A stretch of 64,000 nucleotides of DNA from a virus, in IMG/VR virus record IMGVR_UViG_3300049215_000496, positions 25,082-89,081 of that record; one strand, written 5' to 3'. The stretch's first letter is position 1. Each line of letters opens with the position of its first letter. Below the pieces are notes generated by a model. The model saw only the letters and a program-made list of their open reading frames with translations, was not told the DNA's origin and ran no database searches. The translations under genes were made by a program, and so were the position numbers. Of this stretch, positions 11,129-57,660 are shown one piece after another.

Positions 11129-12109
11129 ATGTTAGATGGCAGCTACGTCACAGGGTACAACGCTGAGAGCAACAACCTCATCCAAGGAGAGGTTGTGCGC
11201 GTGTTTTCGTCCGGTGGGCAGAAGCGCGTCGTGCGCGCGCAGGCTCCGAGCGCGCTGCAAGGGCTCCTAGGCGTGGTCCACTCGGGCGTGGTTGGCCCGG
11301 GTGGACCTGTGGTCGTTGCAGCTATCGCATCCGCGGCCGTCAAGATCCTGCTCGATACAGGGCTCACGCCGATTGACGGAGGAACGTTATACGTGTCGGC
11401 TGTGACCGCCGGACGGGCGACGACCACCATGTCCGGCGCAGCGCTCGCCATCGCATACGACATCTCGAAGTACGCAACGACCACATCCGTGATCGGCATA
11501 CTGGCGCAAAATACCGGACTGGGCGCAACGGGTGTTGGTGGAGCCACTGGTGCGACCGGAGCAGCAGGCGCAACGGGCACAGCCGGAACGGCTGGAACAG
11601 CAGGCGCAACGGGAGCTACCGGTGTGGGCGCGACCGGCGCTACCGGTGCCGCGGGCACTCCTGGAGGAGCAACAGGGGCTACCGGTGTGGGCGCGACCGG
11701 CGCTACCGGCGCGGTGTTCTTTTCGCCGTTTCTGTTTGGGCGCCAAGCCAGTCAGATCCCCAGTGATTCGAATTGGTCCTTGTCGCCGAGTGGCTTCGAC
11801 ATCGTCAGCGACGGTCCGGGTTGGATGACATTCCAGCAGACCAATTTCGTTGATCTGGAAATGTTAATAACGTTCTTGACGTGGGTCGGCGGCGGTAACG
11901 CGAGCTTTCAGGTGCAGCACAGAGCTACCCCGGGCGTCGGCGCTTGGACCACCGACTGCACCATATCGATTCCAAGCGGCACAACAGGTCGACAGCACAC
12001 CACGGTGCCTGCCACGATCCCAGCAGCGGCCGAAGTGCGGCTGCTCGCGTCCGTGCCTGCGTCCACGGACCTGACCGTGATCGATTGGTCGATCTTCCTG
12101 TTCAACTAG
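11129..12109 (+). CDS. short collagen-like fibre sharing its N-terminus with the giant fibre
   Basis: Encodes 326 aa with a strong SD (TTGGAGGG) before ATG 11129. Residues 1-~130 are near-identical in pattern to the start of the 3678-9479 product. A short Gly-Ala-Thr collagen tract (~132-200) follows, then a ~125-aa beta-rich tip. The two proteins probably compete for or share one attachment site and offer alternative receptor-binding tips. Confidence 0.82.
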   Translation: MLDGSYVTGYNAESNNLIQGEVVRVFSSGGQKRVVRAQAPSALQGLLGVVHSGVVGPGGPVVVAAIASAAVKILLDTGLTPIDGGTLYVSAVTAGRATTTMSGAALAIAYDISKYATTTSVIGILAQNTGLGATGVGGATGATGAAGATGTAGTAGTAGATGATGVGATGATGAAGTPGGATGATGVGATGATGAVFFSPFLFGRQASQIPSDSNWSLSPSGFDIVSDGPGWMTFQQTNFVDLEMLITFLTWVGGGNASFQVQHRATPGVGAWTTDCTISIPSGTTGRQHTTVPATIPAAAEVRLLASVPASTDLTVIDWSIFLFN

Positions 12110-15570: not shown

Positions 15571-15721
15571 TGAACACCCGAAACCTGAAGCACGTAAGGC
15601 ATTTCGGTTCTCCGATCAACCTTCGAATCGTGTTATCAATAGTTTTGAGTGTGCTCCTAGCGAGTTCACGTTGACGTTTTTTAACGCGTCGGCGTTTGAT
15701 ACGTCGTTTACGTTTTGTCAT
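15557..15721 (-). CDS. 54-aa very basic protein
   Basis: Starts at ATG 15721, overlapping the integrase stop (ATGA). The first 25 residues are dominated by Arg/Lys (KRKRRIKRRRVKKRQR), followed by a short Cys-x-x-Cys motif (CLTC). Nucleic-acid binding is likely from charge alone. Cotranscription with the integrase suggests an accessory recombination or regulatory factor. Confidence 0.5.
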   Translation of the reverse strand: MTKRKRRIKRRRVKKRQRELARSTLKTIDNTIRRLIGEPKCLTCFRFRVFNDTR

Positions 15722-16563
15722 CTGGGCACCACATCCGGTTTCACTCCGCGCAACCCCAACAAAGCCCCGTCCAGTCGGGCCGCGGCTGCCTTGGTTCCTC
15801 GTGCGTATCCCAACGTGACGGCGAGATTCCGGTGCCCGACGTGTTCCTGGACAACCACCGGCACCACCCCCGCCTCCAGCAAGTGCGTGACGATCGAGTG
15901 CCTGAATACGTGCGGATGCCGGCGCTCGACCTCAACACCGATCTCCTTGAGCACACTGTCCGCCAGCGCCGCGACCTCGTGCCGAGACACTCCCCAACGC
16001 TTGCCTGTCGTCCCGCAGTGATAGCAGTCGATCTTCTGGACCTGCTTGCTTTTGCTCGTCGTGAGCTGCCCCGAGCCCTGACACGGGTAGCAGTCCCCTG
16101 GTTGCGCGCTCGGGAACAGAAACGGCTTTTGTTCAACTGCGACGATGCTGTCAGGCTGCACCTTGAGCCACGGAGGGAGCGCGGCCCGGCACTCGTGCAG
16201 GAGAGCATCCCATTCGCGCTCGGCGCCGTGCTTCAGGTGCACCACACGGGCGCGGCTGTTGTGTGTGTCGACGTCCTTCAAGAGCTGCAAGCCGGGCTCG
16301 GACGCGCGGGCGCCCCACTCGTAGAGCCAGGCAAGAAGCGCGTACTCGAATGGGCCTCGGGCTTTGGCGACGGCGAGGGCACGATTGACCTCGTCGACTT
16401 CGAGCACGGCTTTCTCGTTACGGGTTGTGGGCATCGTCTTTGACAGTCTTAGGTGTTGAGCTTTTTCCACCAGCGAGCGCTGCACCGCCAGAAACTCACC
16501 TTGGAATTCTCCTTCTTGACCACTGTCTGTTTCCGCTGCATCATCACCGCACACTACCTGCAA
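15718..16563 (-). CDS. int: tyrosine recombinase, catalytic domain only, with zinc-ribbon insertion
   Basis: Up to 281 aa (TTG 16563; ATG 16434 gives a 238-aa form). Catalytic set, numbered from the long form: R86 in EWGARASE, K111 in HLKHG, H218-x-x-R221 in HPHVFRHS, H241/H244, and the nucleophile Y253 in GYAR. The usual N-terminal SAM-like core-binding domain is missing. Between the K and HxxR motifs sits an insert with two Cys-x-x-Cys pairs (C158/C161 and C180/C183) that looks like a zinc ribbon. Likely role: site-specific integration or excision, or genome or plasmid resolution. Confidence 0.85.
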   Translation of the reverse strand: MQVVCGDDAAETDSGQEGEFQGEFLAVQRSLVEKAQHLRLSKTMPTTRNEKAVLEVDEVNRALAVAKARGPFEYALLAWLYEWGARASEPGLQLLKDVDTHNSRARVVHLKHGAEREWDALLHECRAALPPWLKVQPDSIVAVEQKPFLFPSAQPGDCYPCQGSGQLTTSKSKQVQKIDCYHCGTTGKRWGVSRHEVAALADSVLKEIGVEVERRHPHVFRHSIVTHLLEAGVVPVVVQEHVGHRNLAVTLGYARGTKAAAARLDGALLGLRGVKPDVVPR

Positions 16564-16615
16564 GAGTGGAGTCTTGCAAGAATTAAGTTACGCTACGTAA
16601 CACTACGCACTGCGT
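16559..16615. promoter_or_regulatory. cluster of inverted repeats beside the integrase (att or operator candidate)
   Basis: Three inverted repeats lie between the divergent integrase and the 16655 operon. TGCAAGA-6 nt-TCTTGCA (16559-16578) has the geometry of a tyrosine-recombinase core site. GTTACG-CTA-CGTAAC (16587-16601) and ACGCA-C-TGCGT (16605-16615) look like operators. The first overlaps the longest possible integrase start. Confidence 0.5.
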
Positions 16616-16617
16616 TA

Positions 16618-16654
16618 TTGACGGTTGCGGTGCGGTGGAGCTATGATTCAAAGC
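16618..16654 (+). promoter_or_regulatory. leaderless-type promoter for the 16655 operon
   Basis: TTGACG (16618-16623), 18 nt, TATGAT (16642-16647), then 7 nt to ATG 16655. This is the best match to sigma70 consensus in the window, and the placement predicts transcription starting at or next to the start codon. Confidence 0.65.
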
Positions 16655-16948
16655 ATGGCTCGCCAAGTCCAAAAAGAAATCGCGCAGCTCATCGCACGCG
16701 GCCCGCAATCGCGCGGGCGAGGCAGCGCTCCGAGCGTCTGCGAAGTGCGATCGATGACACACGGCGAAGCTTGTCGAATACGCGCGTGCATCGACTGCGG
16801 CGCTCCGGGCGGCCAGTTGCTCAAAACGACCAAGGGGGAAAATCCCGGGCGGCTCTTGCGCCTCTGCGCAGCGTGTTTGCGTGGCGGCGTTTGGTGGTGC
16901 TTCGGGCTTGTCGATCGGGATCCGTTGCCTCTCGAAGAAGTTGCCTGA
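16655..16948 (+). CDS. zinc-ribbon protein, unknown
   Basis: Encodes 97 aa from ATG 16655, set by the promoter geometry; an upstream ATG 16643 with a GGTGGAG sequence is an alternative. The N-terminus is basic. The C-terminal half has CIDCGAPGG and CAAC, a Cys-x2-Cys pair set expected to bind zinc. Its TGA overlaps the next ATG. Probably a small DNA- or RNA-binding accessory protein. Confidence 0.6.
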   Translation: MARQVQKEIAQLIARGPQSRGRGSAPSVCEVRSMTHGEACRIRACIDCGAPGGQLLKTTKGENPGRLLRLCAACLRGGVWWCFGLVDRDPLPLEEVA

Positions 16949-17202
16949 TGCCCAGACCTCGCGGAAAACACGGGCGAGATGCCAGCACGGCCATCGCCAT
17001 ACGTGTACCGGATGACCTCCTAGAACTACTGCGCCAGGCGGCCGGTGCCGACGGTGGATCAGCGTTCGCCGAATGGTTTCGCAACGTGCTTCGACGGCAG
17101 GTCAACATACCGATTGACTACGAAGCTGGCTACGAAGAGGGCAAAGCCGCAGGGTGGGCTGACGCACAAGAGCGTTTCCGTGCGGCTATGAAGGGGGTGT
17201 AA
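16948..17202 (+). CDS. small DNA-binding protein, ribbon-helix-helix-like
   Basis: Encodes 84 aa, ATG overlapping the preceding stop (ATGA). A basic N-terminus is followed by AIAIRVPDDLLELLRQAA, which fits the beta-strand plus helix of RHH regulators, then an acidic helical tail. Coupled to a zinc-ribbon protein and opposite the integrase, it could repress the promoters between 16559 and 16655. Confidence 0.55.
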   Translation: MPRPRGKHGRDASTAIAIRVPDDLLELLRQAAGADGGSAFAEWFRNVLRRQVNIPIDYEAGYEEGKAAGWADAQERFRAAMKGV

Positions 17203-17298
17203 TTTGGTGACGCCATTAAGTGTTCCAAGACCTGCAATGGTAACTGCACAAATGCGACTTCGAGCTGCTGCTCGTAGCCACCGGTTGGCTAGCTGAGT

Positions 17299-17643
17299 AT
17301 GAAGTGCGCGGTTTTCAATGGATCGCCGACGTACTGTGCCACCAATGGCGATGCACTAGTGGCACTTGAAGATCAGCTAGTCGACAACGGCACTCTTGTC
17401 AGTCGCACGGAAAACTACCGTCAATCGGGCGTTCCGCTATCTCGCCACATACACGGTGCTTCGTGCTGTGAACTGTGCCATTGCCCAATCAGCACCATAG
17501 GATCATATTGGTGTTGGAACTGCTGGCTTCGCTTCACTGAGCCAAAAGGGACGTGTCTGGTGCGTCCATACATACATTTGACCTCTTGGAATCGCGCGCG
17601 TGAGTGCAAAGAAGAGCAAGAAGAATCAGCCCGACGGGCGTGA
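17299..17643 (+). CDS. Cys-rich hypothetical protein
   Basis: Encodes 114 aa from ATG 17299. The centre carries CCELCHCP and WCWNCW, several Cys-x-x-Cys pairs suggesting one or two zinc sites; the tail is charged (RECKEEQEESARRA). The preceding 96 nt (17203-17298) hold no convincing gene. No family recognised. Confidence 0.55.
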   Translation: MKCAVFNGSPTYCATNGDALVALEDQLVDNGTLVSRTENYRQSGVPLSRHIHGASCCELCHCPISTIGSYWCWNCWLRFTEPKGTCLVRPYIHLTSWNRARECKEEQEESARRA

Positions 17644-20122: not shown

Positions 20123-20649
20123 TCCTGTACAGCACACAAAAGCATAAGCGCGCGTTTACGGCCCACCTCGCGGCGTCGGCGCTCGCTCCAGGATATGGAC
20201 CGGGACCGGCGTGCACGCTACCGGAACAGTTAACGAGGCTGATCGACAAACTTGAATGCACGCTCGAATTCTTTGAAGCGGTTCCAATCGGCGCGGATCT
20301 GACAGACGTTCTTCCCCGGTGGTTTTTGTGGTTGCTGACGGAAGAACTCGGACAGTATCCCACAAGCAAGCCAGTTGCGGAGCTTTACCACCGTCAACTC
20401 GCGGGGGATCCACCAACGAAAAAAGAGTGGGGGGCCGCCTACGCCGCCTACGCCGCCGCCGCCACCGCCGCCGCCGCCTACGCCGCCTACGCCGCCGCCT
20501 ACGCCGCCTACGCCGCCACCGACGCCACCGCCTACGCCGCCTACGCCGCCATCGCCGCCACCGACGCCGCCGCCACCGACACCGCCGCTTGTTACAAACG
20601 GATGCGCGAAGCCCTGCTACGGATCACACATGAATGTTCTCCAACCTGA
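20119..20649 (+). CDS. Ala/Tyr-repeat protein, copy 1
   Basis: Encodes 176 aa starting MILYSTQ. A conserved ~105-residue N-terminal domain (LECTLEFFEAVPIGADLTD, PRWFxWLLTEELGxYPTSK) is very similar to the product at 57107-57664. It is followed by ~50 residues of Ala-Ala-Tyr type repeats and a conserved tail (RMREALL). The repeats are GCC/TAC-rich, and their shifted frame reads as Pro-Thr repeats. Family unknown; the repeat region is hypervariable between copies. Confidence 0.7.
   Translation: MILYSTQKHKRAFTAHLAASALAPGYGPGPACTLPEQLTRLIDKLECTLEFFEAVPIGADLTDVLPRWFLWLLTEELGQYPTSKPVAELYHRQLAGDPPTKKEWGAAYAAYAAAATAAAAYAAYAAAYAAYAATDATAYAAYAAIAATDAAATDTAACYKRMREALLRITHECSPT
20440..20590 (+). repeat. 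GCC/TAC low-complexity tract in the Ala/Tyr-repeat gene
   Basis: Tandem triplets, mainly GCC with TAC every third to sixth codon, encode the Ala/Tyr repeats. Length and order differ completely from the homologous tract at 57170-57340, indicating replication slippage. Confidence 0.75.
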
Positions 20650-26338: not shown

Positions 26339-26499
26339 AGCTAGATCTCCTCGCACTGGCACGCCTCTCACTCCACGCGTGCTGGCTGCTACCGACGGCG
26401 TTGATCGCTCGATGGACGCTGGACGAGAAGTTGATGTGCTACGTGCACAAGCGCACGGCCGAGGAGTGGTTCAGGTTCGACCGGACGCTGCGGGGGTGA
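26326..26499 (+). CDS. possible 57-aa membrane protein
   Basis: GTG 26326 overlaps the end of the previous gene by 13 nt. One hydrophobic stretch (LLALARLSLHACWLLPTALI) is followed by a charged tail. It runs 29 nt into the convergent sigma factor gene. Marginal, but the layout fits the operon. Confidence 0.4.
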   Translation: MRALKLDLLALARLSLHACWLLPTALIARWTLDEKLMCYVHKRTAEEWFRFDRTLRG

Positions 26500-27226
26500 G
26501 CGCCGGATCTTCACGAAGCATCGCACACGCTTGCGCCAGAATTTGACACGCACGTGATTCCGTTCGCTCGATAACGATGCCGATCTCGCCAAGGGACAAA
26601 TCTTGGCAGAAGTACAGCGTCAGCACGCGCTGCATCTGAAGTGGAAGCCTTTCGATCGCCGCTTGCAAGCAATCAAGCATCTGTCCGTGTGCGGCTGCTT
26701 GTAGCGCGTCGACGGCTTTAGGATCCGCGGTGAGTTCGAAGAAGTCGCGGCCGGGCGGCACGGCTTCGTCGTACCCAACCACACGGTCCCCCGCGAGGCG
26801 GCTGCGCATCTTTGCCAGTTCAGCATCGGTAAGGCCCATGTGCGCGGCGATCTCACTTTGGTCCGGCGTGCGCATGAGTGCCCTTTCAAGCTCGTTCACA
26901 ACGTCTCGGAGGTGCATGGACACACGGCGCATGTCTCGCGACAGCGTATCGTTGGCTCGAATCGAATCCAGCATGGCGCCCCGAATCCGTGTCTCAGCAA
27001 ATCCCTCGAACGACACGCCGTGCTTAGCATCGTACCGCGTCGCCGCGTCGATGAGCCCGAGGTTACCGGCTGCGATCAAGTCATCGAGATCGATGTGGTC
27101 TGGCAGCTTGCGAGCCAAACGGCGTGCGACGTTGGCTACAAACGGGAGGGGGTCAGCGATCAGTGCGTCGCGTTTGTGGCGTGCTGCTTGCGAGATAGCC
27201 TGCGGAGGTTTTCGTCGTCGGTCCAC
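26471..27226 (-). CDS. phage-encoded sigma factor, FliA/sigma28-like
   Basis: Encodes 251 aa from GTG 27226. Region 2 is clear: DLDDLIAAGNLGLIDAATRYD and GVSFEGFAETRIRGAMLDSIR. Region 3 holds a short helical domain (RTPDQSEIAAHMGLTDAEL). Region 4 has LPLQMQRVLTLYFCQDLSLGEIG with a helix-turn-helix end. Group 3 sigmas of this type recruit host RNA polymerase to a dedicated promoter set. As the last gene of a structural-type operon it could switch on late genes; which window promoters it reads is unknown. Confidence 0.9.
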   Translation of the reverse strand: MDRRRKPPQAISQAARHKRDALIADPLPFVANVARRLARKLPDHIDLDDLIAAGNLGLIDAATRYDAKHGVSFEGFAETRIRGAMLDSIRANDTLSRDMRRVSMHLRDVVNELERALMRTPDQSEIAAHMGLTDAELAKMRSRLAGDRVVGYDEAVPPGRDFFELTADPKAVDALQAAAHGQMLDCLQAAIERLPLQMQRVLTLYFCQDLSLGEIGIVIERTESRACQILAQACAMLREDPALTPAASGRT

Positions 27227-37091: not shown

Positions 37092-39551
37092 TCAGCTCGC
37101 GGCCTTCCAGTCATCTGCCGCTTTAGCTACGGCAGGGAAGTACATCGGGCCAATGCGTTTTTGCATAACACGTTCTACGATTTTTTTCACATGTTCTGTT
37201 TCGTGAGCACCACATTCTACGACGAGCTGATCGTGTCCTTGAATAACTAAGCCCCGGTGCTGTACAAAATCGAACGGGTATGACGCCACAAGAGCCATCA
37301 CGGCATCGTTTTGCATATCAGCTGACGCTCCTTGGATGGGGTGATTTCCCATCTCTTCGCGCTTTTCTCCTCCGATGAAAAACCGCTTTCGCTGGTGATA
37401 GGCTGTGGCGATGAACCCGTGACTACGCCAACCCAAGATCAGCTTTCGCTTCCACTCGACTATTGCCGGGTGAACCTTCCACCACAGGTTGTACACCCGC
37501 TCGACCTCGGCTAACGTGATATGAGGGAACAGCGGTTCAAGATTGTCGTTTCGAAGCAGCGACAGTGTTCGATAGATTGTTGGCGTACCAGCATCGTACG
37601 ACAGTGCATACACGAAGCGCTTGACGAAGTTCCGCACTTCATCGTTCACGTCCTCAGGCTTGCACCTGAACAAACTGCACGCATTGAATATGTGCACGTC
37701 CGGGCCACGCTTTTCATCGAACGCCTTGAACGCTTCGATCAGCGGCTCGTCGCCGGCAAGCAGCGCGATCTGGCGAAGCTCGACGGCGCTCATGTCAGCC
37801 GCGACGAACTTGTTTCCGGGCGCGGGCTTGAACATCGCACGCAATTTCTTCGGGATGTTCTGACAATTCGGGTCGCTTGAGCCCCATCGTCCAGATCGCT
37901 TGCCGGGGCGCCACGATGAGCGAACGCGACCGTCCGCGTGCACAATCGGGCCGCCTTCGATATGCCCGTCTACGATGTGCCCTGTGTTCACACCAAGCAG
38001 CTTCTCGGCTTCCCGATACCCGAGCAGCCCATGGATGACCTTGCGCGCACGATCGTCGAGTCCTACCGCCAGCAAATCCAGCAGCGTCGGTTCGTCCGTC
38101 GACGGATCTCCGGAATCCGTCATGTGCTCATCGAGCATGGGCAGCCCTAGATCGTGATAGAGCAGCTTGCGCACCTGAACAGGAGATCCTGGATTGATAT
38201 CTCGGCCCGCGATCTCAACAAACTCTCGTTTCAAGCGATCAGATTTCTCTTGATACTCAGCCGCGAACTTCCAGCGCATTGCCGGATCAATCCAGATCCC
38301 GAGCGCCGCCATCGATCGCGCGATTCGGAACAGCTCGGCGTCCAGGTTGTAGATGTGCTCTTGCTTCGCCCACGACACATTTTGTATCACGTACGGCTCG
38401 GACAGATACGTGACGGCGATGTCGTACGACAGATACTTGTCTAGCGTTGCGTCGTCTTTGATCTCAGAATGCTTGGCATCGTCCTTCCAAAATCTGGCGT
38501 CTGTGTACATCGATCCAAGAAAATCCAATCTGTGAGGCAATTCGGACGTAGGCCCTATCTGATGTGCGATCATGGTGTCGAACGATGTGTCGTCACGCAG
38601 AGGCACCCCATGCCGATGCAACACGATCGAATCGAAGCCGATTCCGTTGTGGAGCACCACGTGCTGGTCTGTCTGGAAGTACCCCGCGATCACACGCTGG
38701 CACGTTTCGATTTCGTGCTCCGGCATCAACAGGTGGCCCCGCACGCTCAACGGTGCGTAGATCATGACTTCGCGATCGGTTCCTATGCCGATCCGACGCA
38801 ACCGGCACGACCAAGCGTCTTTCCCGTCGGTCTCGACGTCAACGGCAACGCGTGGGCGCGGCACCGCCAAGAAGTTGTAGATCTCCGTGGCGGTCTTTGG
38901 AACGAAATACAGCGGGTCCTGCCACGTGTTTCCCCCACGCGACAGGCGCACGGCTTTGGCGACGTCTGCATGGAACAGCGGGCGCTGCACCCGCCCCTCT
39001 TCACGCATCACAAACGCAGCGTGCAGGATCGGCAACGCTGGAGGGCCGTTCGGGATCTGAACAGGCGTGCCACGCAGCTTGGTGATGCTCCCTCCAATGC
39101 CCACGGCTGTGAGACTCGCGGAGCCCATCAAGATCACGAAGCGGGTGCGAGCAAGTTCAGCCTGGAGCCGAGGGCGGCAGCATTCGATGGGAGAGGGCAC
39201 CCCCTGCTTCTTGCACTGCTGAAGATAGCGCTTCAGATCCGTGCCTGGCGGACGGCACAAAATACTGTTCGTGAAACCTGTGTGCTGTGGATCGGCCCCC
39301 GCAGTCCGTAGCGCCGTACGAATCTCACGCCCAGCGGCACCGACTTGTGTTTTCCCTTCTGAGATTTCTGTAGATCCCGGCGCTTCCGCGACCACAAGCA
39401 ACGCGATTTCGCCGTCAGGCAGAGACGGCGGAACTGGGCCTTGACCACTGTTCCGCAAACTACATTCGCTACATTTCGCACCCGCAGCGACGGCAAAATC
39501 ATGCTGTGGACCTAGCGCACCAGCAACAAAATCAAATGCACTACTGGACAC
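37092..39551 (-). CDS. polA: family A DNA polymerase with N-terminal uracil-DNA-glycosylase-like domain
   Basis: Encodes 819 aa; GTG 39551 has a good SD (GGAGGAG), and GTG 39572 overlapping the upstream stop is the alternative. Residues ~25-200 resemble family 4/5 uracil-DNA glycosylases (CSECSLR, VVAEAPG, FTNSILCRPPG, RFVILMGSASL). Next is a DEDD 3'-5' exonuclease (VAVDVETDG, LHNGIGFDS). The polymerase domain has motif A AADMSAVELR with D586, motif B around K644, and motif C IQGHDQLVVE with H773-D774. The usual HDE reads HDQ, and motif B is atypical. A UDG-polymerase fusion is known from SPO1-like phages. Confidence 0.93.
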   Translation of the reverse strand: MSSSAFDFVAGALGPQHDFAVAAGAKCSECSLRNSGQGPVPPSLPDGEIALLVVAEAPGSTEISEGKTQVGAAGREIRTALRTAGADPQHTGFTNSILCRPPGTDLKRYLQQCKKQGVPSPIECCRPRLQAELARTRFVILMGSASLTAVGIGGSITKLRGTPVQIPNGPPALPILHAAFVMREEGRVQRPLFHADVAKAVRLSRGGNTWQDPLYFVPKTATEIYNFLAVPRPRVAVDVETDGKDAWSCRLRRIGIGTDREVMIYAPLSVRGHLLMPEHEIETCQRVIAGYFQTDQHVVLHNGIGFDSIVLHRHGVPLRDDTSFDTMIAHQIGPTSELPHRLDFLGSMYTDARFWKDDAKHSEIKDDATLDKYLSYDIAVTYLSEPYVIQNVSWAKQEHIYNLDAELFRIARSMAALGIWIDPAMRWKFAAEYQEKSDRLKREFVEIAGRDINPGSPVQVRKLLYHDLGLPMLDEHMTDSGDPSTDEPTLLDLLAVGLDDRARKVIHGLLGYREAEKLLGVNTGHIVDGHIEGGPIVHADGRVRSSWRPGKRSGRWGSSDPNCQNIPKKLRAMFKPAPGNKFVAADMSAVELRQIALLAGDEPLIEAFKAFDEKRGPDVHIFNACSLFRCKPEDVNDEVRNFVKRFVYALSYDAGTPTIYRTLSLLRNDNLEPLFPHITLAEVERVYNLWWKVHPAIVEWKRKLILGWRSHGFIATAYHQRKRFFIGGEKREEMGNHPIQGASADMQNDAVMALVASYPFDFVQHRGLVIQGHDQLVVECGAHETEHVKKIVERVMQKRIGPMYFPAVAKAADDWKAAS

Positions 39552-40811: not shown

Positions 40812-40876
40812 TCCGGAGCGGTCAGGGAGACTTCCTCTCGGACGTCGCTGTACGCTCTTTCCCTGCCCGCTCCGGA
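40812..40876 (-). promoter_or_regulatory. long intergenic hairpin in the replication operon
   Basis: TCCGGAGCGG (40812-40821) pairs perfectly with CCGCTCCGGA (40867-40876). After one mismatch, six more pairs and a G-T pair extend the stem, leaving a ~27-nt loop. No U-run follows on the transcribed strand, so a plain terminator is unlikely; RNA processing, stability or attenuation between the ssDNA-binding gene and the 95-aa gene is more likely. Confidence 0.65.
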
Positions 40877-40888
40877 AGCTCGAAAAAC

Positions 40889-41821
40889 CTACGACCCTGC
40901 TCCCGGAGCAGGCGGAAACGGGAACGCCGGTGCGCCTCCCGGTTGCGGTGCAACTGCCGCGGGAGGCGGCGGGAACGTAAACGCTTGTGCCGGTGCAGCA
41001 GCTTGCGGAACTGGCGGAAACTGGAACGACGCCGCCGGAACGGGAAGGCCCCCGTTGGGTGCTGCGGGAGCAAACGCGAATCCTTGCTGTGGTGCCATCG
41101 TCGGCGGTAGCGTTGATGGCACGGACGGCGCGGCTTGCTGCATCGGAGCTGCCGAAGCGGGTGCCGGAACTGCGCCAGCGAACGGCGATGCGGGCGCACC
41201 GGGCAAGCCCATTCCGCTCATTCCAGGAAACGACGACGGCAGACCTGCGGGGAGCGCACCGACAGCGCCAGCACCCGCACCGCCTTTGACCTTGGCCGGC
41301 CAACGGTGCTTCTTCGCAACAACTGCCTGATCATACTCCGTCTTGGTCACGAACGCATCGACGCCAGTGCGTTGCGCCCCGCTGCTATCGAGGTACGCGC
41401 CCGTGCGTCCGTAGCAGATCTGATTCGTGAACATCCCTGTCGTGTAACGCAAACCCGCACGCGCTACGTCGAGCCCTCCGGTGATCGAGCGGATCAGCCC
41501 ACGCCACGTGAACCAGATATCTTTGGTGGTTGTTCGCGGGTCGGACAGGAACTTCGAGAGCATCTTGCCCCGCGCGTCCTCGTCCACGATCTCCAAATTC
41601 AGGAATACGCCAGCAGCCTTTCCTGAATCGTGCCGAGAGGACTCCTTGGTGATCCGCATCGCATAGTATCCGTCGGTGTCGAGCGTGTCTGTTGTGTCGA
41701 ACGGCTCCCAGCTTGCGTCAGGCGGGATATCGAGCACAAATCCTGTCCCGGAAGGCTGTGCTGCTTGTGGTTGCTGCGCGCCCGGTACCGCGCCCATTCC
41801 GGGAAATGCTCCAAATGACAT
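40889..41821 (-). CDS. ssDNA-binding (DUF669-like) protein with Pro/Ala tail
   Basis: Encodes 310 aa from ATG 41821, SD CAGGAG. Residues ~30-170 form a beta-rich domain with YYAMRITKESSRHDSGKA and FLNLEIVDEDARGKML, as in phage DUF669 / OB-fold ssDNA-binding proteins. The remaining ~140 residues are Pro/Ala/Gly/Phe-rich and probably disordered, perhaps a partner-docking tail. Linked to the Sak4-like ATPase downstream of its promoter region. Confidence 0.72.
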   Translation of the reverse strand: MSFGAFPGMGAVPGAQQPQAAQPSGTGFVLDIPPDASWEPFDTTDTLDTDGYYAMRITKESSRHDSGKAAGVFLNLEIVDEDARGKMLSKFLSDPRTTTKDIWFTWRGLIRSITGGLDVARAGLRYTTGMFTNQICYGRTGAYLDSSGAQRTGVDAFVTKTEYDQAVVAKKHRWPAKVKGGAGAGAVGALPAGLPSSFPGMSGMGLPGAPASPFAGAVPAPASAAPMQQAAPSVPSTLPPTMAPQQGFAFAPAAPNGGLPVPAASFQFPPVPQAAAPAQAFTFPPPPAAVAPQPGGAPAFPFPPAPGAGS

Positions 41822-41861: not shown

Positions 41862-42644
41862 TCAAAGCCCCGGATACGGCGGGGTCCGCGATCTAAGAAA
41901 CGCCCCGAGATCCGCAGGCACAACCATCTGATTGCATCCCTCGCGGTTCTTCACCCGCCACGAGCGAACATCCTGCGGCATCCCGAACGTACCGAGAGAC
42001 TCCGGCCAGATCTCCCCGCCGGTGTAGTACACCCGCATCGGCGCGCGCCCTGGAATTGTCAGCCAATCGACACGTAAGACCGAATCCAGCAACCCGAAAT
42101 AGTTGTCCGTCATGGTCTTCGGGACCATCGCCGGACCGCCCGCGTAGAACACGCCGTCGAGCACCGCGGGGGGCGCCGAATGCGCGATGAACACACTGTG
42201 CAAGCCGATCTGGCGGATCCACTCGCGCAAGTTGTACAGCACCGCACGCATCTCCGTCGGGATCGCGAACTTGTTCCGGTTGCCCGCGAAGCGCGCTTCA
42301 AGTTCCTTGTACACGTAGTTGCAGAACGTGCTGAAGCCGTCGATCACACCCGCAACGTACTTGTCGCGGTTCTGCGCGAGCCATGCGATTGTCTCTGTCA
42401 TTTGAGTCCACGTTTTCACTGTGTCGCGTGGATGATCCGGAATTGGATAGCCCCGTGCTGCAATCGATTTGAGAGCACCGTCTTCGCACGGAATGAAAAA
42501 CGCACGACAGCGACCGTCCTTGAAGAAAGCCTCGTATGAGTCTGTCGTCTTTTTCATGCCGGGACCGCCATACAGTAAGACGTTGGCCGGCGTAGAGACG
42601 ACGTTTGCTTGGGCTTGTGCACCTGTGACGATCTCGATGCTCAC
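41862..42644 (-). CDS. Sak4-like RecA-fold ATPase (AAA_24)
   Basis: Encodes 260 aa from ATG 42644. Walker A YGGPGMKKTT at ~25-34 and Walker B VAGVIDGFSTF near 95-105 match phage nucleotide-binding proteins of the Sak4 group, which anneal or pair single strands. Neighbouring ssDNA-binding protein and PD-(D/E)XK nuclease complete a recombination cassette. Confidence 0.82.
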   Translation of the reverse strand: MSIEIVTGAQAQANVVSTPANVLLYGGPGMKKTTDSYEAFFKDGRCRAFFIPCEDGALKSIAARGYPIPDHPRDTVKTWTQMTETIAWLAQNRDKYVAGVIDGFSTFCNYVYKELEARFAGNRNKFAIPTEMRAVLYNLREWIRQIGLHSVFIAHSAPPAVLDGVFYAGGPAMVPKTMTDNYFGLLDSVLRVDWLTIPGRAPMRVYYTGGEIWPESLGTFGMPQDVRSWRVKNREGCNQMVVPADLGAFLRSRTPPYPGL

Positions 42645-43922: not shown

Positions 43923-44503
43923 GGATCGTGGCCTTCCGCTGCGCGAACAGCCTGATCCGCATACTCTTCTTTTTCTTGCTCAATCCATACCGCGCACGTC
44001 TTCAAGTGCTCTACGCTCTCGTCGATGTCGTCCTTCGCGCGATGCGCTTCTGCTTTCGGGATCTTTTCCATTCCCAAGGTCTGGCAGAACAGCTTCACGG
44101 CGCTCACGTCAAGATAGCGGTGTGAAAATAAATTCGCCAAATCTGGCATGTGCACCTTCAAGAAAGCGTGATCGAAGTGCACGCTTGAACCCGCCAGTAT
44201 TGGCCGAGACTCATAATCATCCCCTGGCAGAATCAACTTGAGCAGTTCTTGTTCGACACCAGCAACTGAATTCCGACTTTCAAGGCACTCTGAAAGCAAG
44301 CCGCTTTTGGTGTGCATATCTCGGATGAACGGTGCCCATTCATTGATGTCGAAGCACGGCAGAACAGCATGATACACATGCTCTATGTCAAACAAGCTGA
44401 TCTGTTTTGCTACGGCGATTTCAAGAATCTGATCGCGTGCTGGCAGCAGGCCAGTGGTCTCGATATCCAACCAGTAGATTACAGGCTCATGCATCGCCGC
44501 CAC
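43919..44503 (-). CDS. oligoribonuclease-like DEDD exonuclease
   Basis: Encodes 194 aa from ATG 44503. DEDDh motifs: WLDIETTGLLPARDQILEIA (D13/E15), AGSSVHFDHAFL, and AHRAKDDIDES. The DMHTKSGL segment and length (~180-195 aa) fit Orn-type 3'-5' exonucleases, which digest short RNAs to nucleotides. In a phage it may recycle oligonucleotides for DNA synthesis. Confidence 0.85.
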   Translation of the reverse strand: MAAMHEPVIYWLDIETTGLLPARDQILEIAVAKQISLFDIEHVYHAVLPCFDINEWAPFIRDMHTKSGLLSECLESRNSVAGVEQELLKLILPGDDYESRPILAGSSVHFDHAFLKVHMPDLANLFSHRYLDVSAVKLFCQTLGMEKIPKAEAHRAKDDIDESVEHLKTCAVWIEQEKEEYADQAVRAAEGHDP

Positions 44504-46169
44504 CTTTCATCGACTTCAATTTCGCGAACAGATCGTCGACGATCGACTCATCTGTCCGGCCACCCAATAACACCTTCATATCGTTGTTGTCGCTTTCCAT
44601 TCCCATCGCTTGTTCGATCGTCGACAACTTCGAGATCACACTCTCTGCGACGTGCTCATCCAGCGTACCTGTACCGATCAAATACCGGACCAGCAACCGC
44701 GTGGTCCCTCCGATTCGGTGTGCACGCTTCTCGAACTGCACGAGCTTCCACGGCTCTGGTACGAGATCACCGAACAGCATCAGATCTGCCCCGACCAATG
44801 AAATCGCCAGACCGACCGAATCGATCGTCGCCACGAAACACGCCGGGGCTTGAACCTCACGAAAGACTTTCGCCTGCGCGTCCCGCCCATCAGGGGACAG
44901 ATCACCGTGCACGCACGCCACAGGGCAATCGACCGCGGCTTTGATCGCTTTGGCAACAGCTTCACACTGTTCCCGCATGTAGAGCCCGACGATCACCTTT
45001 TGCTTGGATTGAAGTGCTTCAACCGCCTGCTGGACCACGGCCGAACGTTTGGCTTTGGCCGTGATCCGTAGTGCCTTCCCTACAAAACCGGACTTCGACA
45101 GCGCCTCGTGCCCTTCGTGCACCGTCGGAGCCGACACAGTCACATCGATTCGATAAATTTCCCGGCGCTTCTCGGGCAGCTCCAGCTTGACAGATTCGGC
45201 AGTGCGCCCGAGGCAGAAGAATGTGAGCCGTCGTCCCAACTCATCCAACCGCGTGCCCCCGGTGTCCTTCCAACCGTATTGCGCCTGCTGCCCGTCGCAG
45301 TAGGCCCGCGCCCACGTGTAGTAGTCCCCGAACAGACCACCAGAAACCAGATCGATCAGCGCCCACAGATCGCGGATGTAGTTCGGAATCGGTGTGCCCG
45401 TGAGCCCCCACACGACCGGAACACGCCGGCAGACCTGCTTCGCCGCTTTCGTGCGCTGCGACTTTCGCCCGCGCAGCAGATGCGCTTCGTCGGCAATCAC
45501 AATCAAAAACTGATCGGTAAGCGTTGAACACCAACCAGGCAGCGTGTCAACCGCGTGCACGACGCCCGCTGCATCCCGTTTGTGTGCTCCGTGCAGAATG
45601 TCATAATTCGCGATCACGTAGCGCGTTTGCGGAATCGGACCGGGGGTCAGCGTCGCGAGAACCTCCGCGTCGTGCCCCGTCCACTTTTTGACTTCGCGCT
45701 GCCAGTGGCGTTTCGCCAGCGCAGGAGAAAGAACTAACACGACAGGTGTGGTGTGCGATGGAATCGAAGCAAGGGACAGACGCGCTTCAGCGGCGATCAG
45801 TGATTGAGCGGTCTTGCCCACGCCGGGCTGATCTGTGAGCAACGCGTAGTCACGCTCCGCCAAGAACGCCGCTCCATCGTGCTGGTAGTGCCACAACCCG
45901 ACGTGTTTTGCGTACTCGATCGCGTGCTCACGGGCCCCCGGTACGCCTGGCCACATCGGAGGCGCGCTCACAGGTGCCCCCAATACCGCTTGCACCAGCC
46001 ATGCAGCGTCTACAGCACACTGTGTTTCTCCTCTGCGGATGTCCGATCCAGGTGCATGGAAATCGTCCATCGCACCGTTGAACACATAGTTTCGTGTTCC
46101 GCGCGCATGGATGCTCGGCTGGAGCATCGCACGCGAGGGCAAACGGAATGGCACGGCCGAGGTCGTCAT
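44487..46169 (-). CDS. SNF2-family helicase/ATPase
   Basis: Encodes 560 aa from ATG 46169. Walker A DQPGVGKTAQ at ~113-122, DEAH box VIADEAHLLRG, motif III GLTGTPIPNYIRDL, and C-terminal VQFEKRAHRIGGTTRL as motif VI. SNF2-type phage proteins translocate on dsDNA to assist replication or recombination. First gene of the long minus-strand operon, divergent from 46298. Confidence 0.9.
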   Translation of the reverse strand: MTTSAVPFRLPSRAMLQPSIHARGTRNYVFNGAMDDFHAPGSDIRRGETQCAVDAAWLVQAVLGAPVSAPPMWPGVPGAREHAIEYAKHVGLWHYQHDGAAFLAERDYALLTDQPGVGKTAQSLIAAEARLSLASIPSHTTPVVLVLSPALAKRHWQREVKKWTGHDAEVLATLTPGPIPQTRYVIANYDILHGAHKRDAAGVVHAVDTLPGWCSTLTDQFLIVIADEAHLLRGRKSQRTKAAKQVCRRVPVVWGLTGTPIPNYIRDLWALIDLVSGGLFGDYYTWARAYCDGQQAQYGWKDTGGTRLDELGRRLTFFCLGRTAESVKLELPEKRREIYRIDVTVSAPTVHEGHEALSKSGFVGKALRITAKAKRSAVVQQAVEALQSKQKVIVGLYMREQCEAVAKAIKAAVDCPVACVHGDLSPDGRDAQAKVFREVQAPACFVATIDSVGLAISLVGADLMLFGDLVPEPWKLVQFEKRAHRIGGTTRLLVRYLIGTGTLDEHVAESVISKLSTIEQAMGMESDNNDMKVLLGGRTDESIVDDLFAKLKSMKGGGDA

Positions 46170-46297: not shown

Positions 46298-47554
46298 GTG
46301 TTACCCGATCGGATCAGCCAAGCACTTCCCCAAGGCTACGGCTTCTTGAGGAGCTATGTGGAGTATGCCGCTCAATGCTCCGACGCGCCGGAGATCTACC
46401 ACGTCGGTGTGGCTCTCACGATCTTCTCTGGCGCTGTCGCAAAAAAGCTCACATGTCCTTGGATGGCTGGCCGCACGCTGGTGCCCAATCTGTACACACT
46501 GCTCGTCGGACCTTCGCGTTCTGCCCGCAAAACTGGGTCGATGGACACAGGAATCGATATCATCCGGATGGCGAACAACGATCTAGTCATTCCAATCCCT
46601 GGATCGTACGAAGAGATGATCTCGCAGATCCGCGCTACACCGCACGGATTGTTGACATACCGAGAGTTCGGGCACTTCTTGAAAACCACACAACGTGGAT
46701 ACGGGGAGCCGATTCGCACGGTGTTGATGGACCTGTACGACTGGCCTCCAGACCGCGCCTATACTCGTAACCTGAAGAAAGTTAAGACTGTGGTCGAAGC
46801 ACCAATATGCCTGTCGATGCTGAGCAGCATAGCGACCGATCTGCTTTACGCATTCACCGATACGGAAGAGTGGACCGGCGGGTTCTTCGGTCGAATGCTG
46901 CTGCTCTATGGCGAGCGTGAGAGTTTTCGAATGCCAACGACGTGGATCTCGGCGCGAGATTACCTTGTTGGAATGCTCCATCAGCACTACCATTACCCGT
47001 TTCCACAGTGCGGCGGGTTCTCCCCCGCGGCATGGCAACAATTCGAGAGTTGGTCGCAGTGGCGTGACTCAAAAGCCAACGAAGCTCCAGCACGAATGCA
47101 AACGCACATCGCGGGCGCGACAACACTTGCCGCTAAGGTTGCGTTGCTCTACGCCGCGGACGCTGCCGAAGTCATGGCGGGAAACGGATGGCTGATCACG
47201 CTTGAATCCATGACACGCGCGATCTTGTTCATCGAGAACCTGTACCTGCCGAGCGTGATGCATCTTGGGGAGCGCCTGGCGCTTGGGATTTGGGAGCGGG
47301 ACCGCCAACGCGTGCTCGACGCCGTGGAGTCCGGCGGGCACCTAGGAATATCCCGAAAGGCACTGCTCCTACGCGTGAAAATGGAGTCGACGTTCTTAGA
47401 GTCGATCATCAACACGCTTCGCGAAGAGGGATCGATTTCGCAGATCAACGACTCGCGCGGGTTGGCCTATCGACGATCACGCCCGAGCGAAGGTAGTGGT
47501 TTGGTGGGCAGCGGACCGATAGCGAACGTCATTCCGATTCGCGGGACGCCGTAA
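46298..47554 (+). CDS. DUF3987-like replication-associated protein
   Basis: Encodes 418 aa from GTG 46298. The core has VGPSRSARKTGS, an Ala-Arg-Lys variant of the P-loop seen in DUF3987 proteins, followed by YREFGHFLK and FGRMLLLYGER. The C-terminal ~70 residues look like a winged-helix (ISRKALLLRVKMESTFLESII). The family is usually linked to plasmid or phage replication, often with primases. Divergent from the replication operon. Confidence 0.72.
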   Translation: MLPDRISQALPQGYGFLRSYVEYAAQCSDAPEIYHVGVALTIFSGAVAKKLTCPWMAGRTLVPNLYTLLVGPSRSARKTGSMDTGIDIIRMANNDLVIPIPGSYEEMISQIRATPHGLLTYREFGHFLKTTQRGYGEPIRTVLMDLYDWPPDRAYTRNLKKVKTVVEAPICLSMLSSIATDLLYAFTDTEEWTGGFFGRMLLLYGERESFRMPTTWISARDYLVGMLHQHYHYPFPQCGGFSPAAWQQFESWSQWRDSKANEAPARMQTHIAGATTLAAKVALLYAADAAEVMAGNGWLITLESMTRAILFIENLYLPSVMHLGERLALGIWERDRQRVLDAVESGGHLGISRKALLLRVKMESTFLESIINTLREEGSISQINDSRGLAYRRSRPSEGSGLVGSGPIANVIPIRGTP

Positions 47555-48073: not shown

Positions 48074-48174
48074 GTTGGAGAATCTTGCCCTCTCCACAGG
48101 GGTTGGCGCCATGATCACAGTGCCGGCTGATTTCATCGGCTACAAATGGTTGGAGAATCTTGCCCTCTCCACAG
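48074..48174. repeat. two 26-bp hairpin-forming direct repeats, 75 bp apart
   Basis: Identical 26-bp copies at 48074-48099 and 48149-48174 are separated by 49 bp. Each contains TGGAGA and TCTCCA, able to form a 6-bp stem with a 9-nt loop. They fill the gap (48028-48191) between minus-strand genes. Possible protein-binding sites or RNA elements; too few copies and too long a spacer for a confident CRISPR call. Confidence 0.7.
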
Positions 48175-48191
48175 AGTTTGCGACGCGCCAC

Positions 48192-48527
48192 CTACGTTTC
48201 ATTGATTGCATTTATTTGTCCTTTTCCACATACAAGCGTTATCTCATCACCGTCGTGAATGTTTAAACTTTTTTCGTTGGCATAACCACGCCATTTCTCT
48301 TGCCCACGTCGCAGTTCCCACTCTTTTAACCGCAACGAACGTGCAAGATCTGTTTGAGCGATGTCATCAAAAAGTGCCTCACATGTCCATGGCGTTCCGC
48401 TAGCAGTTTTCAGTTCGGCATCGAAACGCTTTGTTTCTGTGTCGTCGTTTAGACGAATATTGTGGTTGCCTATTTTGAACCTGAGCTGTTGCGCATCGCT
48501 ACGTTTGAGTGTGATTCTGAGTTTCAT
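48192..48527 (-). CDS. hypothetical protein
   Basis: Encodes 111 aa, ATG overlapping the upstream stop (ATGA). Beta-rich N-terminus (KLRITLKRSDAQQLRFKIG), acidic middle, and DGDEITLVCGKG at the end. No family recognised. Confidence 0.6.
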   Translation of the reverse strand: MKLRITLKRSDAQQLRFKIGNHNIRLNDDTETKRFDAELKTASGTPWTCEALFDDIAQTDLARSLRLKEWELRRGQEKWRGYANEKSLNIHDGDEITLVCGKGQINAINET

Positions 48528-49528
48528 GTGCTCACCGTTTGTTCTGTCGGCGCATCTTCTGCAGGCAATTCTGTCGGTTCTGTCGATGCACGCTCTGTCA
48601 CTTCGAGATGCGACGCCGCCCACAACAACTCTGTGACAACAGACTGCACGCTCAATGCAATGTCGTCAAAATGCGCGCTGCCCAACACACTTCGTTCGAT
48701 CACGAGCACGTCTGCACCTTCTTTCAATCGCGCATCGAACGCTGCGAGATCATCCGTCACGCTTCCCCGCAACGAAGACAGCGCACTTGCCAAGGCGCCC
48801 CGCGGCACGAGCGCGACGATCCGGCCCGTTTCAACCGGTGGCGGGGCGCTGTCAGCCTTCCAATCGCGCGGGGGCTCGCCGAATAACGGGGTCTCGGACG
48901 GCACAAGATGCAGGTTGCGGTGCCCCCACGCTGCCTCAAATGCGCTGGCCAAGGCCTCTAGCAGCTCGCTGGTAAGCTCGATCGGCGTGCAGTCGACACA
49001 TGGGTCCTTGTGGGCAGGACACGCAGCACGCGGCACGTGGAGTGTCCAGGACGCGCACGGGAACCACCCGAACGTTGCAGGTGTGGCGCTGATCACGGTT
49101 TTGGTCTCGGTGTCTAGCCGCAGCTCGGGCATGCTCGTGATCCGCGGGATGGTCTTGCCCTCGTACGGGGGCACCACGGAGCCGACACGTAACCACGCGA
49201 TGCCGTCCCGCACATCGGCGTGCTTAAAAGCCCGGATCACCGGCTGAACGCGGGCGTAGTACGATTCGGTTTGCCAGCGCAGGTACGCGTTCGCGGCCGT
49301 ACGCTCCGTGTTGTGCACGAGCAGCTCCGGCTTGAACAGGCGCCCTTGACGTTTCAGCCGGGCCGCGAGTTTCACGTACACGCTGGTCACGGCCGGCGAG
49401 ATGTTGCCTCTGCCCAAAAGGTCCTGAGCGAACGCGCGGGCCTCTGGGAAGGTGTCCAGCAAGCTCGCGTGGAAGGTGAACGTCAACCCGTTCACGGTGA
49501 TACTCGTAGGATTTTTATATCTCGGCAT
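48524..49528 (-). CDS. hypothetical protein with Cys cluster
   Basis: Encodes 334 aa from ATG 49528. A basic N-terminal helical region, a central CPAHKDPCVDC motif (residues ~165-185) suited to zinc, and an acidic disordered C-terminus rich in Thr/Glu. Divergent from the 49733 operon, starting 55 nt from the large palindrome. Confidence 0.65.
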   Translation of the reverse strand: MPRYKNPTSITVNGLTFTFHASLLDTFPEARAFAQDLLGRGNISPAVTSVYVKLAARLKRQGRLFKPELLVHNTERTAANAYLRWQTESYYARVQPVIRAFKHADVRDGIAWLRVGSVVPPYEGKTIPRITSMPELRLDTETKTVISATPATFGWFPCASWTLHVPRAACPAHKDPCVDCTPIELTSELLEALASAFEAAWGHRNLHLVPSETPLFGEPPRDWKADSAPPPVETGRIVALVPRGALASALSSLRGSVTDDLAAFDARLKEGADVLVIERSVLGSAHFDDIALSVQSVVTELLWAASHLEVTERASTEPTELPAEDAPTEQTVST

Positions 49529-49582
49529 GATGGACGGGCAGTGTACGCGAAATTGAATTTAGTGTCCATACTATTAATTTTA

Positions 49583-49676
49583 TCGCGCGCGCACAATAAG
49601 CGATTATCAACGTATGTATATAAAGAAGGGCTTCTTCGTATACACGCGTTAATAACCGCTTATTGTGCGCGCGCGA
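49583..49676. repeat. 94-bp near-perfect palindrome between divergent operons
   Basis: Pairing is centred between 49629 and 49630. Of 47 opposed positions, 40 are Watson-Crick and two are G-T. The outer 20 bp are perfect, from TCGCGCGCGC outward to CACAATAAGCG, and the centre is AAGAAG-GG-CTTCTT. AT-rich DNA flanks its left side. It could be a replication origin element, a cruciform site, a bidirectional terminator-like hairpin or a recombinase target. No T-run follows either arm. Confidence 0.8.
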
Positions 49677-49732: not shown

Positions 49733-49996
49733 GTGGCAGCGATCATTCCCGGCATGCGAATCACCGTGATGTCTCGTATGGAACTGGAAAGTGGCCCCGT
49801 GCCAGAACCGCTGCGGGGCACTGTGCTGCATGTGCACGAATCACGAATCACGTGGCGGACGCCCAACGGTTCGTTCGGTTGGCCTTTGCTGCTTCACGAC
49901 GAAGGCGTGCGCTGGATCCGTGGGCACCACGCGCCGAACAGCCAAGAAGTGCTTGCTCTCCAAGCGGCGTTCGCGTTGGCAGGATCCGGCACTTGA
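49733..49996 (+). CDS. hypothetical protein
   Basis: Encodes 87 aa from GTG 49733 with SD AGGAG, 56 nt from the palindrome. Beta-rich small domain (GTVLHVHESRITWRTP) resembling an SH3- or Tudor-like barrel, then an acidic helix. Unknown function; an early or regulatory role is possible from position. Confidence 0.6.
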   Translation: MAAIIPGMRITVMSRMELESGPVPEPLRGTVLHVHESRITWRTPNGSFGWPLLLHDEGVRWIRGHHAPNSQEVLALQAAFALAGSGT

Positions 49997-50017: not shown

Positions 50018-50053
50018 TTGACACGTTTCGCGAACTCGTGCAGGCTTCCCCAC
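50018..50053 (+). promoter_or_regulatory. leaderless-type promoter for the HTH regulator
   Basis: TTGACA (50018-50023), 17 nt, CAGGCT (50041-50046), 7 nt, ATG 50054. The -35 is consensus, the -10 is weak, suggesting regulated or activated transcription. Confidence 0.4.
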
Positions 50054-50314
50054 ATGGCGACTCCCGCCGAAACCAAAACCGCAATCGGCGACGAGATCCG
50101 CCGACTGCGTGACGCGCTCGGGATGACATTGCAGGATTTCGGGCGCCACGTCGGTGTGCCGTGGCAAACGATTCAGGCGTACGAGACCGGGCGCGTGATG
50201 CCCCCTGCGGATCGGCTGTTCAAAATCGTGCACGCGTGCCGGCGTGCGAAAGAGCCGTTCCGGTTCGAGCACGTTGCGCGTGCTGTCGGAACAGCGGTAT
50301 TGCGAGCTGCATGA
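50054..50314 (+). CDS. HTH_3 (XRE-type) transcriptional regulator
   Basis: Encodes 86 aa from ATG 50054, fixed by promoter geometry. The helix-turn-helix spans ~10-62: RRLRDALGMTLQDFGRHVGV and WQTIQAYETGRVMPPAD. No ligand or peptidase domain follows. Cro/CI-like size; a candidate to control the divergent promoters at the palindrome. Confidence 0.82.
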   Translation: MATPAETKTAIGDEIRRLRDALGMTLQDFGRHVGVPWQTIQAYETGRVMPPADRLFKIVHACRRAKEPFRFEHVARAVGTAVLRAA

Positions 50315-55754: not shown

Positions 55755-55829
55755 TTGACGTCAGGATGGCCAATTGTGCAAGTCATGGAGAGGTCTATCG
55801 GGCAGATGGTGCTGTTTCTTTAGCAATAT
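55755..55829. repeat. 75-bp direct repeat, copy 1
   Basis: Identical over 75 bp to 57067-57141. On the minus strand it carries the end of one gene (AKETAPSAR, stop) and the start of another (MTCTIGHPDV). Here it joins the 55795 gene to the truncated repeat-protein copy. Confidence 0.85.
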
Positions 55830-56902: not shown

Positions 56903-57098
56903 TGTGTGGCGTGATCGCCCCACTCAATTGCACTTCTGTCTCAAGTTCAATTCCTAGCGTGCTGCCACATCGTAGGCAGTTTCGTAGAACGTAGTCGCTG
57001 TCGCCCGGGGCTCCCCGCTGGACGCCAATCAACACCGTTTCGGTTCGGAGGCGCGTCAGATCGGCTTTGACGTCAGGATGGCCAATTGTGCAAGTCAT
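56895..57098 (-). CDS. zinc-knuckle small protein
   Basis: Encodes 67 aa from ATG 57098; its first ten residues lie inside the 75-bp repeat. Contains NCLRCGSTLG, a Cys-x-x-Cys site, and an amphipathic beta region. No family recognised. Confidence 0.55.
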   Translation of the reverse strand: MTCTIGHPDVKADLTRLRTETVLIGVQRGAPGDSDYVLRNCLRCGSTLGIELETEVQLSGAITPHSG

Positions 57099-57106
57099 GG
57101 AGAGGT

Positions 57107-57660
<554 letters not shown>

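Follow-up and report, generated by a model that had tools for sequence, protein, structure and literature searches.

In this work, we analysed a stretch of 64,000 bp (hereafter the window, i.e. bases 25082-89081 of the 89,081-bp IMG/VR virus contig G000) and found that a near-perfect palindrome of 94 bp marks the position of the bidirectional (theta-type) replication origin in a group of circular virus-like genomes of 89-103 kb and probably takes part in its working. We give this reading a probability of roughly two in three (about 0.68). The evidence that the palindrome is located at the origin is strong, and the evidence that it serves there as a structural (cruciform or hairpin) element is moderate. 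Replication origin was among the candidate roles listed in the original prediction and is the one favoured by the GC-skew minimum, the strand-corrected replication signal and positional conservation; cruciform recognition, listed beside it, is retained as a possible sub-mechanism.

The palindrome and its flanking genes

The palindrome (window 49583-49676, assigned to neither strand), proposed here as a structural element of the origin, was confirmed as first described: 40 of the 47 opposed positions pair, the outer 20 perfectly, around a two-base GG centre (49629-49630). Its arms are 46 nt each and complementary at 40 of 46 positions. All six arm mismatches are of the transition type (four A.C and two T.G on the plus strand) and are held in an AT-rich inner part (49597-49662, GC about 0.38), and the outer arms, TCGCGCGCGCAC on the left (49583-49594) and GTGCGCGCGCGA on the right (49665-49676), are GC-rich runs of alternating purine and pyrimidine. 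Over the 89,081-bp contig this is the sole site of its kind, the runner-up centre pairing at 31 of 47 positions. Its symmetry score of 34 was not approached in 300 dinucleotide shuffles of that intergenic sequence (null mean of 6.9, maximum of 12), and its folding z-scores were -8.8 as DNA and -10.1 and -13.6 as RNA of the two strands.

To the left, a spacer of 54 bp (49529-49582) separates the palindrome from the start of a minus-strand gene. Its GC content of about 0.42, vs 0.58 for the genome, bears out the AT-rich DNA noted on one flank and makes it a candidate region for unwinding and for the promoter of that gene. A sigma-70-like promoter match (TGGACA-17-TACACT, 49540-49568, minus strand) was identified there, outside the palindrome, as a match to the consensus only.

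The boundary had been described as divergent, between a minus-strand gene starting at 49528 and a plus-strand gene at 49733. The first of these, p334 (48524-49528, minus strand, 334 aa, no recognised family), has good support, three relatives having homologues, and stands beside the palindrome in every case. The second is weaker: the 87-aa GTG-initiated ORF at 49733-49996 (plus strand) is supported by short matches in L010, and the conserved right partner is instead a Cro/CI-type helix-turn-helix (HTH) protein (50018-50314, plus strand, start possibly at 50045 or 50054). No match to p334 was obtained among phages, plasmids or GTDB genomes, and the protein matched no helicase family and, in two models (mean pLDDT of 52 and 69), no fold significantly. 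The fold-search matches, which included Cre for the first model and HU/IHF for the second, were insignificant, and we claim no fold. In two relatives, a HerA-like ATPase gene directly follows p334 (L006, i.e. G003, 4748-6505; L009, i.e. G001, 15829-17553); it was not found in the G000 window.

An assembly fold-back is an unlikely source of the palindrome, because the exact 127-bp end overlaps of the closed contigs imply assembly with k = 127, a length exceeding that of the palindrome, and because other metagenomes independently yielded palindromes of differing sequence at the same locus. A mobile palindromic (MITE-like) insertion was ruled out by the single copy, the same position in four genomes and the differing sequences.

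Replication signals in the closed genomes

Relatives of G000 were retrieved through its helicase and primase-like protein. Three contigs, G000, G001 and G003 (89,081, 102,927 and 94,503 bp), close as circles through exact 127-bp end overlaps, i.e. circular sizes of 88,954, 102,800 and 94,376 bp once the overlap is subtracted. The G000 window encodes a DNA polymerase (PHROG 17; 37092-39128, minus strand), a Sak4-like ssDNA-annealing ATPase (41862-42644, minus strand), an SNF2-family (SF2) helicase of the replication module (44487-46169, minus strand) and a DUF3987/phage-primase-like protein (46298-47554, plus strand), the last being 73% identical in G001 and G003. The DNA polymerase, helicases, Sak4 and exonucleases fall within about 15 kb of the palindrome. 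Other G000 genes encode a Dda-like helicase, exonucleases, a thymidylate synthase and an endolysin, and an RNA polymerase sigma factor (phrog_351) is encoded at window 26471-27118.

As searches for a large terminase (PF03237, phrog_2) were negative in five related virus contigs (G000, G001, G003, G002 and G007), we call these genomes virus-like on the authority of IMG/VR and do not claim a tailed phage; G000 and its relatives could represent viruses of an unusual group, or else plasmid-like elements. The structural proteins of G000 were unrecognised, and large presumed structural genes with collagen-like Gly-X-Y stretches occur at window 4080-4972, 8895-9076 and 11522-11703. Two further repeats were observed, an inverted repeat of 346 nt (80%) shared by two paralogous genes in which GCC/GGC codon repeats abound (window 20243-20588 and 57183-57528) and an exact 75-bp direct duplication 1.3 kb apart (window 55755-55829 and 57067-57141). 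Rfam and tRNA searches gave no match.

Cumulative GC skew, which had been suggested as a check on the origin role, switches at the palindrome in all three closed replicons. The minimum lies 0.5-0.9 kb from the palindrome centre (794 bp in G000, 513 bp in G001 and 861 bp in G003), at a resolution of about 1 kb, so that the true start could be inside or beside p334; in G000 the minimum itself (48836) falls within this gene. The skew maxima are roughly opposite, 38 (G000, window 11914), 51 (G001) and 44 kb (G003) from the palindrome.

Because genes also diverge at the palindrome, transcription was separated from replication. Gene direction was removed by using fourfold-degenerate sites and subtracting head-on from co-directional genes. 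With replichores defined from the skew extremes, the coding strand showed an excess of G in co-directional genes (0.10-0.23) and a value near zero in head-on genes in the three genomes. To remove the circularity of this definition, each position was tried in turn as the origin, the terminus always being placed diametrically opposite. The replication component then peaked 460 (G000), 623 (G001) and 3 bp (G003) from the palindrome, with 1.4, 1.5 and 0.5% of positions, respectively, doing as well and a gene-label permutation p of about 0.0002 in each, the three genomes sharing ancestry and so not being fully independent tests. With intergenic bases alone, the skew minimum was found within 3.3 (G000), 0.1 (G001) and 0.5 kb (G003). 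The origin signal thus persists after transcription direction is removed. In a fourth palindrome-bearing contig, the unclosed 54-kb one of L049, the palindrome coincides with neither a skew minimum nor a strand signal, and replication skew is all but absent from the whole contig.

Neither an iteron array, sought up to 0.6 kb from the palindrome, nor a cluster of DnaA boxes near it was detected, so that nothing else independently marks the origin. A pair of 32-nt direct repeats (94%) 75 bp apart (window 48074-48105 and 48149-48180) is present about 1.5 kb to the left; it was rejected as an origin mark, since it is one isolated pair and G001 and G003 lack an equivalent with this spacing. Near the skew maximum, G000 encodes a XerC/XerD-like tyrosine recombinase (window 15718-16554, minus strand; G000 40874-41488). 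In each closed genome this XerC-like protein is the only tyrosine recombinase and lies 2-6 kb from the skew maximum and 33-46 kb from the palindrome, which suggests dimer resolution at the terminus; a dif-like site, sought as a shared 13-mer near the recombinase, was not found.

Being at the origin, the palindrome might act there indirectly, either as a cruciform cut by a structure-specific nuclease, the programmed break then starting concatemer replication that depends on recombination, or by forming a hairpin in single-stranded DNA that primes the lagging strand. The Sak4-like annealing protein, the Dda-like helicase and the exonucleases would fit such a route, but nothing singles it out against direct initiation and a dedicated Holliday-junction or hairpin nuclease was not identified among the encoded proteins; we consider it unlikely.

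Conserved position and changed sequence in relatives

The p334-HTH gene pair is present in four contigs including G000, and all four have an inverted repeat exactly between the two genes. The palindrome of G003 is 99 bp long (48-nt arms at 94%, the outer 40 positions perfect) and that of L049 is imperfect and about 95 bp long; G001 has a degenerate repeat with 33-nt arms (70%), for which equal-scoring sites exist elsewhere in the genome. A perfect palindrome is therefore not obligatory. In the four intergenic regions, the symmetry was matched by 0, 0, 0 and 2 of 300 dinucleotide shuffles. G002 carries the same helicase and primase-like genes and has neither p334 nor such a palindrome.

The arms of G001 are recognisably related to those of G000, CACAATAAG being common to both. 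The arms of G000 and G003 have nothing in common except the CG-repeat base, yet both palindromes are near-perfect; symmetry has thus been kept while the sequence changed. Comparison with relatives, also put forward as a check, found symmetry at the same position in all four p334-bearing contigs and a sequence that had turned over, which suggests that shape, not letters, is what selection sees. Long palindromes are nuclease targets in bacteria (SbcCD), and the palindrome had been argued to be unstable and hence necessarily selected; this is no proof alone, and better proof comes from the position and symmetry being conserved under a changed sequence.

What recurs is a plan: the arm bases are GC-rich, with purines and pyrimidines alternating for the most part, the core is AT-rich (GC 0.28-0.38), and so is the flank facing p334, in contigs with a genome GC of 0.58-0.67. 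Exceptions are a weaker alternating run in L049 and a left arm base of 0.44 GC in G001. In three of the four, the 50-bp segment poorest in GC within 5 kb coincides with the palindrome or adjoins it. Scanning viral contigs for the same arm pattern gave no match, nor did a distant BLAST search of the locus against phages and plasmids. L049 lies on a smaller contig (G007, 54 kb) that has the palindrome and the p334, HTH and helicase genes but no replication skew, a combination that suggests movement of the origin module from one genome to another.

The same comparison bears on a regulatory function, in which p334 and the HTH gene would be controlled from operators or a bidirectional promoter region here, the HTH protein or another dimer would bind the palindrome, and its place at the origin would be incidental. 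Divergent genes, an HTH neighbour and the promoter-like match beside the palindrome are all in keeping with such a site. However, G000 and G003 have almost no palindrome sequence in common despite 68% identity of their HTH proteins, arms of 46-48 nt far exceed a dimer operator, and it would have to be a coincidence that palindrome and replication signal fall together in three genomes, which leaves this function rather improbable.

Proposed mechanism and comparison with known systems

For the origin reading, the following course of events can be proposed. Negative supercoiling and the AT-rich flank would open the AT-rich centre of the palindrome, and the arms would then fold back into a cruciform or hairpin locked by the GC-rich alternating bases; an AT-rich core within GC-rich arm bases is suited to the extrusion of a cruciform when DNA is negatively supercoiled. 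The shape or the junction would be recognised by a replication protein, for which the neighbouring p334 is the likeliest candidate, and this protein would load the helicase and primase-like proteins of the element itself, giving two outgoing forks. We infer that p334 is a candidate origin-binding protein. It is the natural candidate reader, since it co-occurs with the palindrome, starts 54 bp from it and has no known family or fold. The fuller version, in which p334 is the initiator of an undescribed family that recognises the extruded cruciform by its shape, leaving the arms free to change in sequence as long as the palindrome persists, in a new group of circular virus-like genomes, is advanced tentatively and is somewhat doubtful as a whole.

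The closest system in plan is HSV oriL, a long perfect palindrome of 144 bp with an AT-rich centre, which is likewise a palindromic origin between divergent genes and beside replication genes. It sits between the divergent ul29 and ul30 (PMC10541914), and at oriS the origin-binding protein recognises a hairpin (PMC12543377). The long palindrome, AT-rich centre and divergent genes were all found here, in degenerate form in G001. HSV origins, however, hold conserved boxes for the SF2 helicase UL9/OBP, whereas here the arms are unconserved in sequence, no such boxes were found, p334 has no helicase signature, and the SNF2 helicase, which might at most be a candidate for such a role, is 3.4 kb away. 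The likeness is one of plan, and no homology is implied.

For theta-replicating phages such as ICP1 and many huge phages, bidirectional replication has been inferred from GC skew or read coverage, and here from skew alone; the available text of those reports describes no long palindrome at the origins (PMC7145576, PMC7162821). Iteron origins (lambda O and RepA-type) similarly place the origin beside a candidate initiator gene and AT-rich DNA, but differ in the iteron array and DnaA-box cluster that are lacking here. Insect mitochondrial control regions have unusually long palindromes at the replication origin region (PMC1762429), in organellar, AT-rich genomes and with no linked initiator gene.

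The N15-type telRL site is another long phage-borne palindrome, with a palindromic core of 56 bp (PMC12624138). The length and imperfect centre of the present palindrome resemble such sites, and a target for a recombinase or telomere resolvase had been among the predicted roles. A hairpin-telomere target, as in linear plasmid prophages of the N15 type, is nevertheless very improbable: a ResT/TelK protelomerase (PF16684) is absent from seven related contigs, the sole tyrosine recombinase is the distant XerC-like protein near the skew maximum, and the palindrome is at an origin, whereas telomeres are replication termini. Furthermore, the sequence of each of the three circles continues across the palindrome, an observation that concerns their assembled form.

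Equally remote is control of p334 or neighbouring genes by a hairpin in a transcript, acting as an attenuator, a terminator or a substrate of RNase III, as in the predicted hairpin affecting both transcripts: the RNA fold is very stable on both strands and the minus strand turns four of the six mismatches into G-U pairs, but this preference is inconsistent (four vs two mismatches), the promoter match for p334 lies downstream of the palindrome, i.e. between it and the gene, the genes diverge, and neither a T tract nor a terminator or Rfam match was found at the palindrome.

Palindromes near bacterial, plasmid and viral origins have been stated to be invariably short, i.e. 10-12 bp (PMC1762429). 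A search of the open-access literature with a few phrases found no phage origin with a palindrome this long, which is not proof of novelty. If the proposed reading is true, p334 would stand out as the first member of a family of origin-binding proteins not recognised before, and an origin palindrome of about 95 bp whose sequence turns over would offer a natural system in which to ask whether cruciform shape alone can mark an origin.
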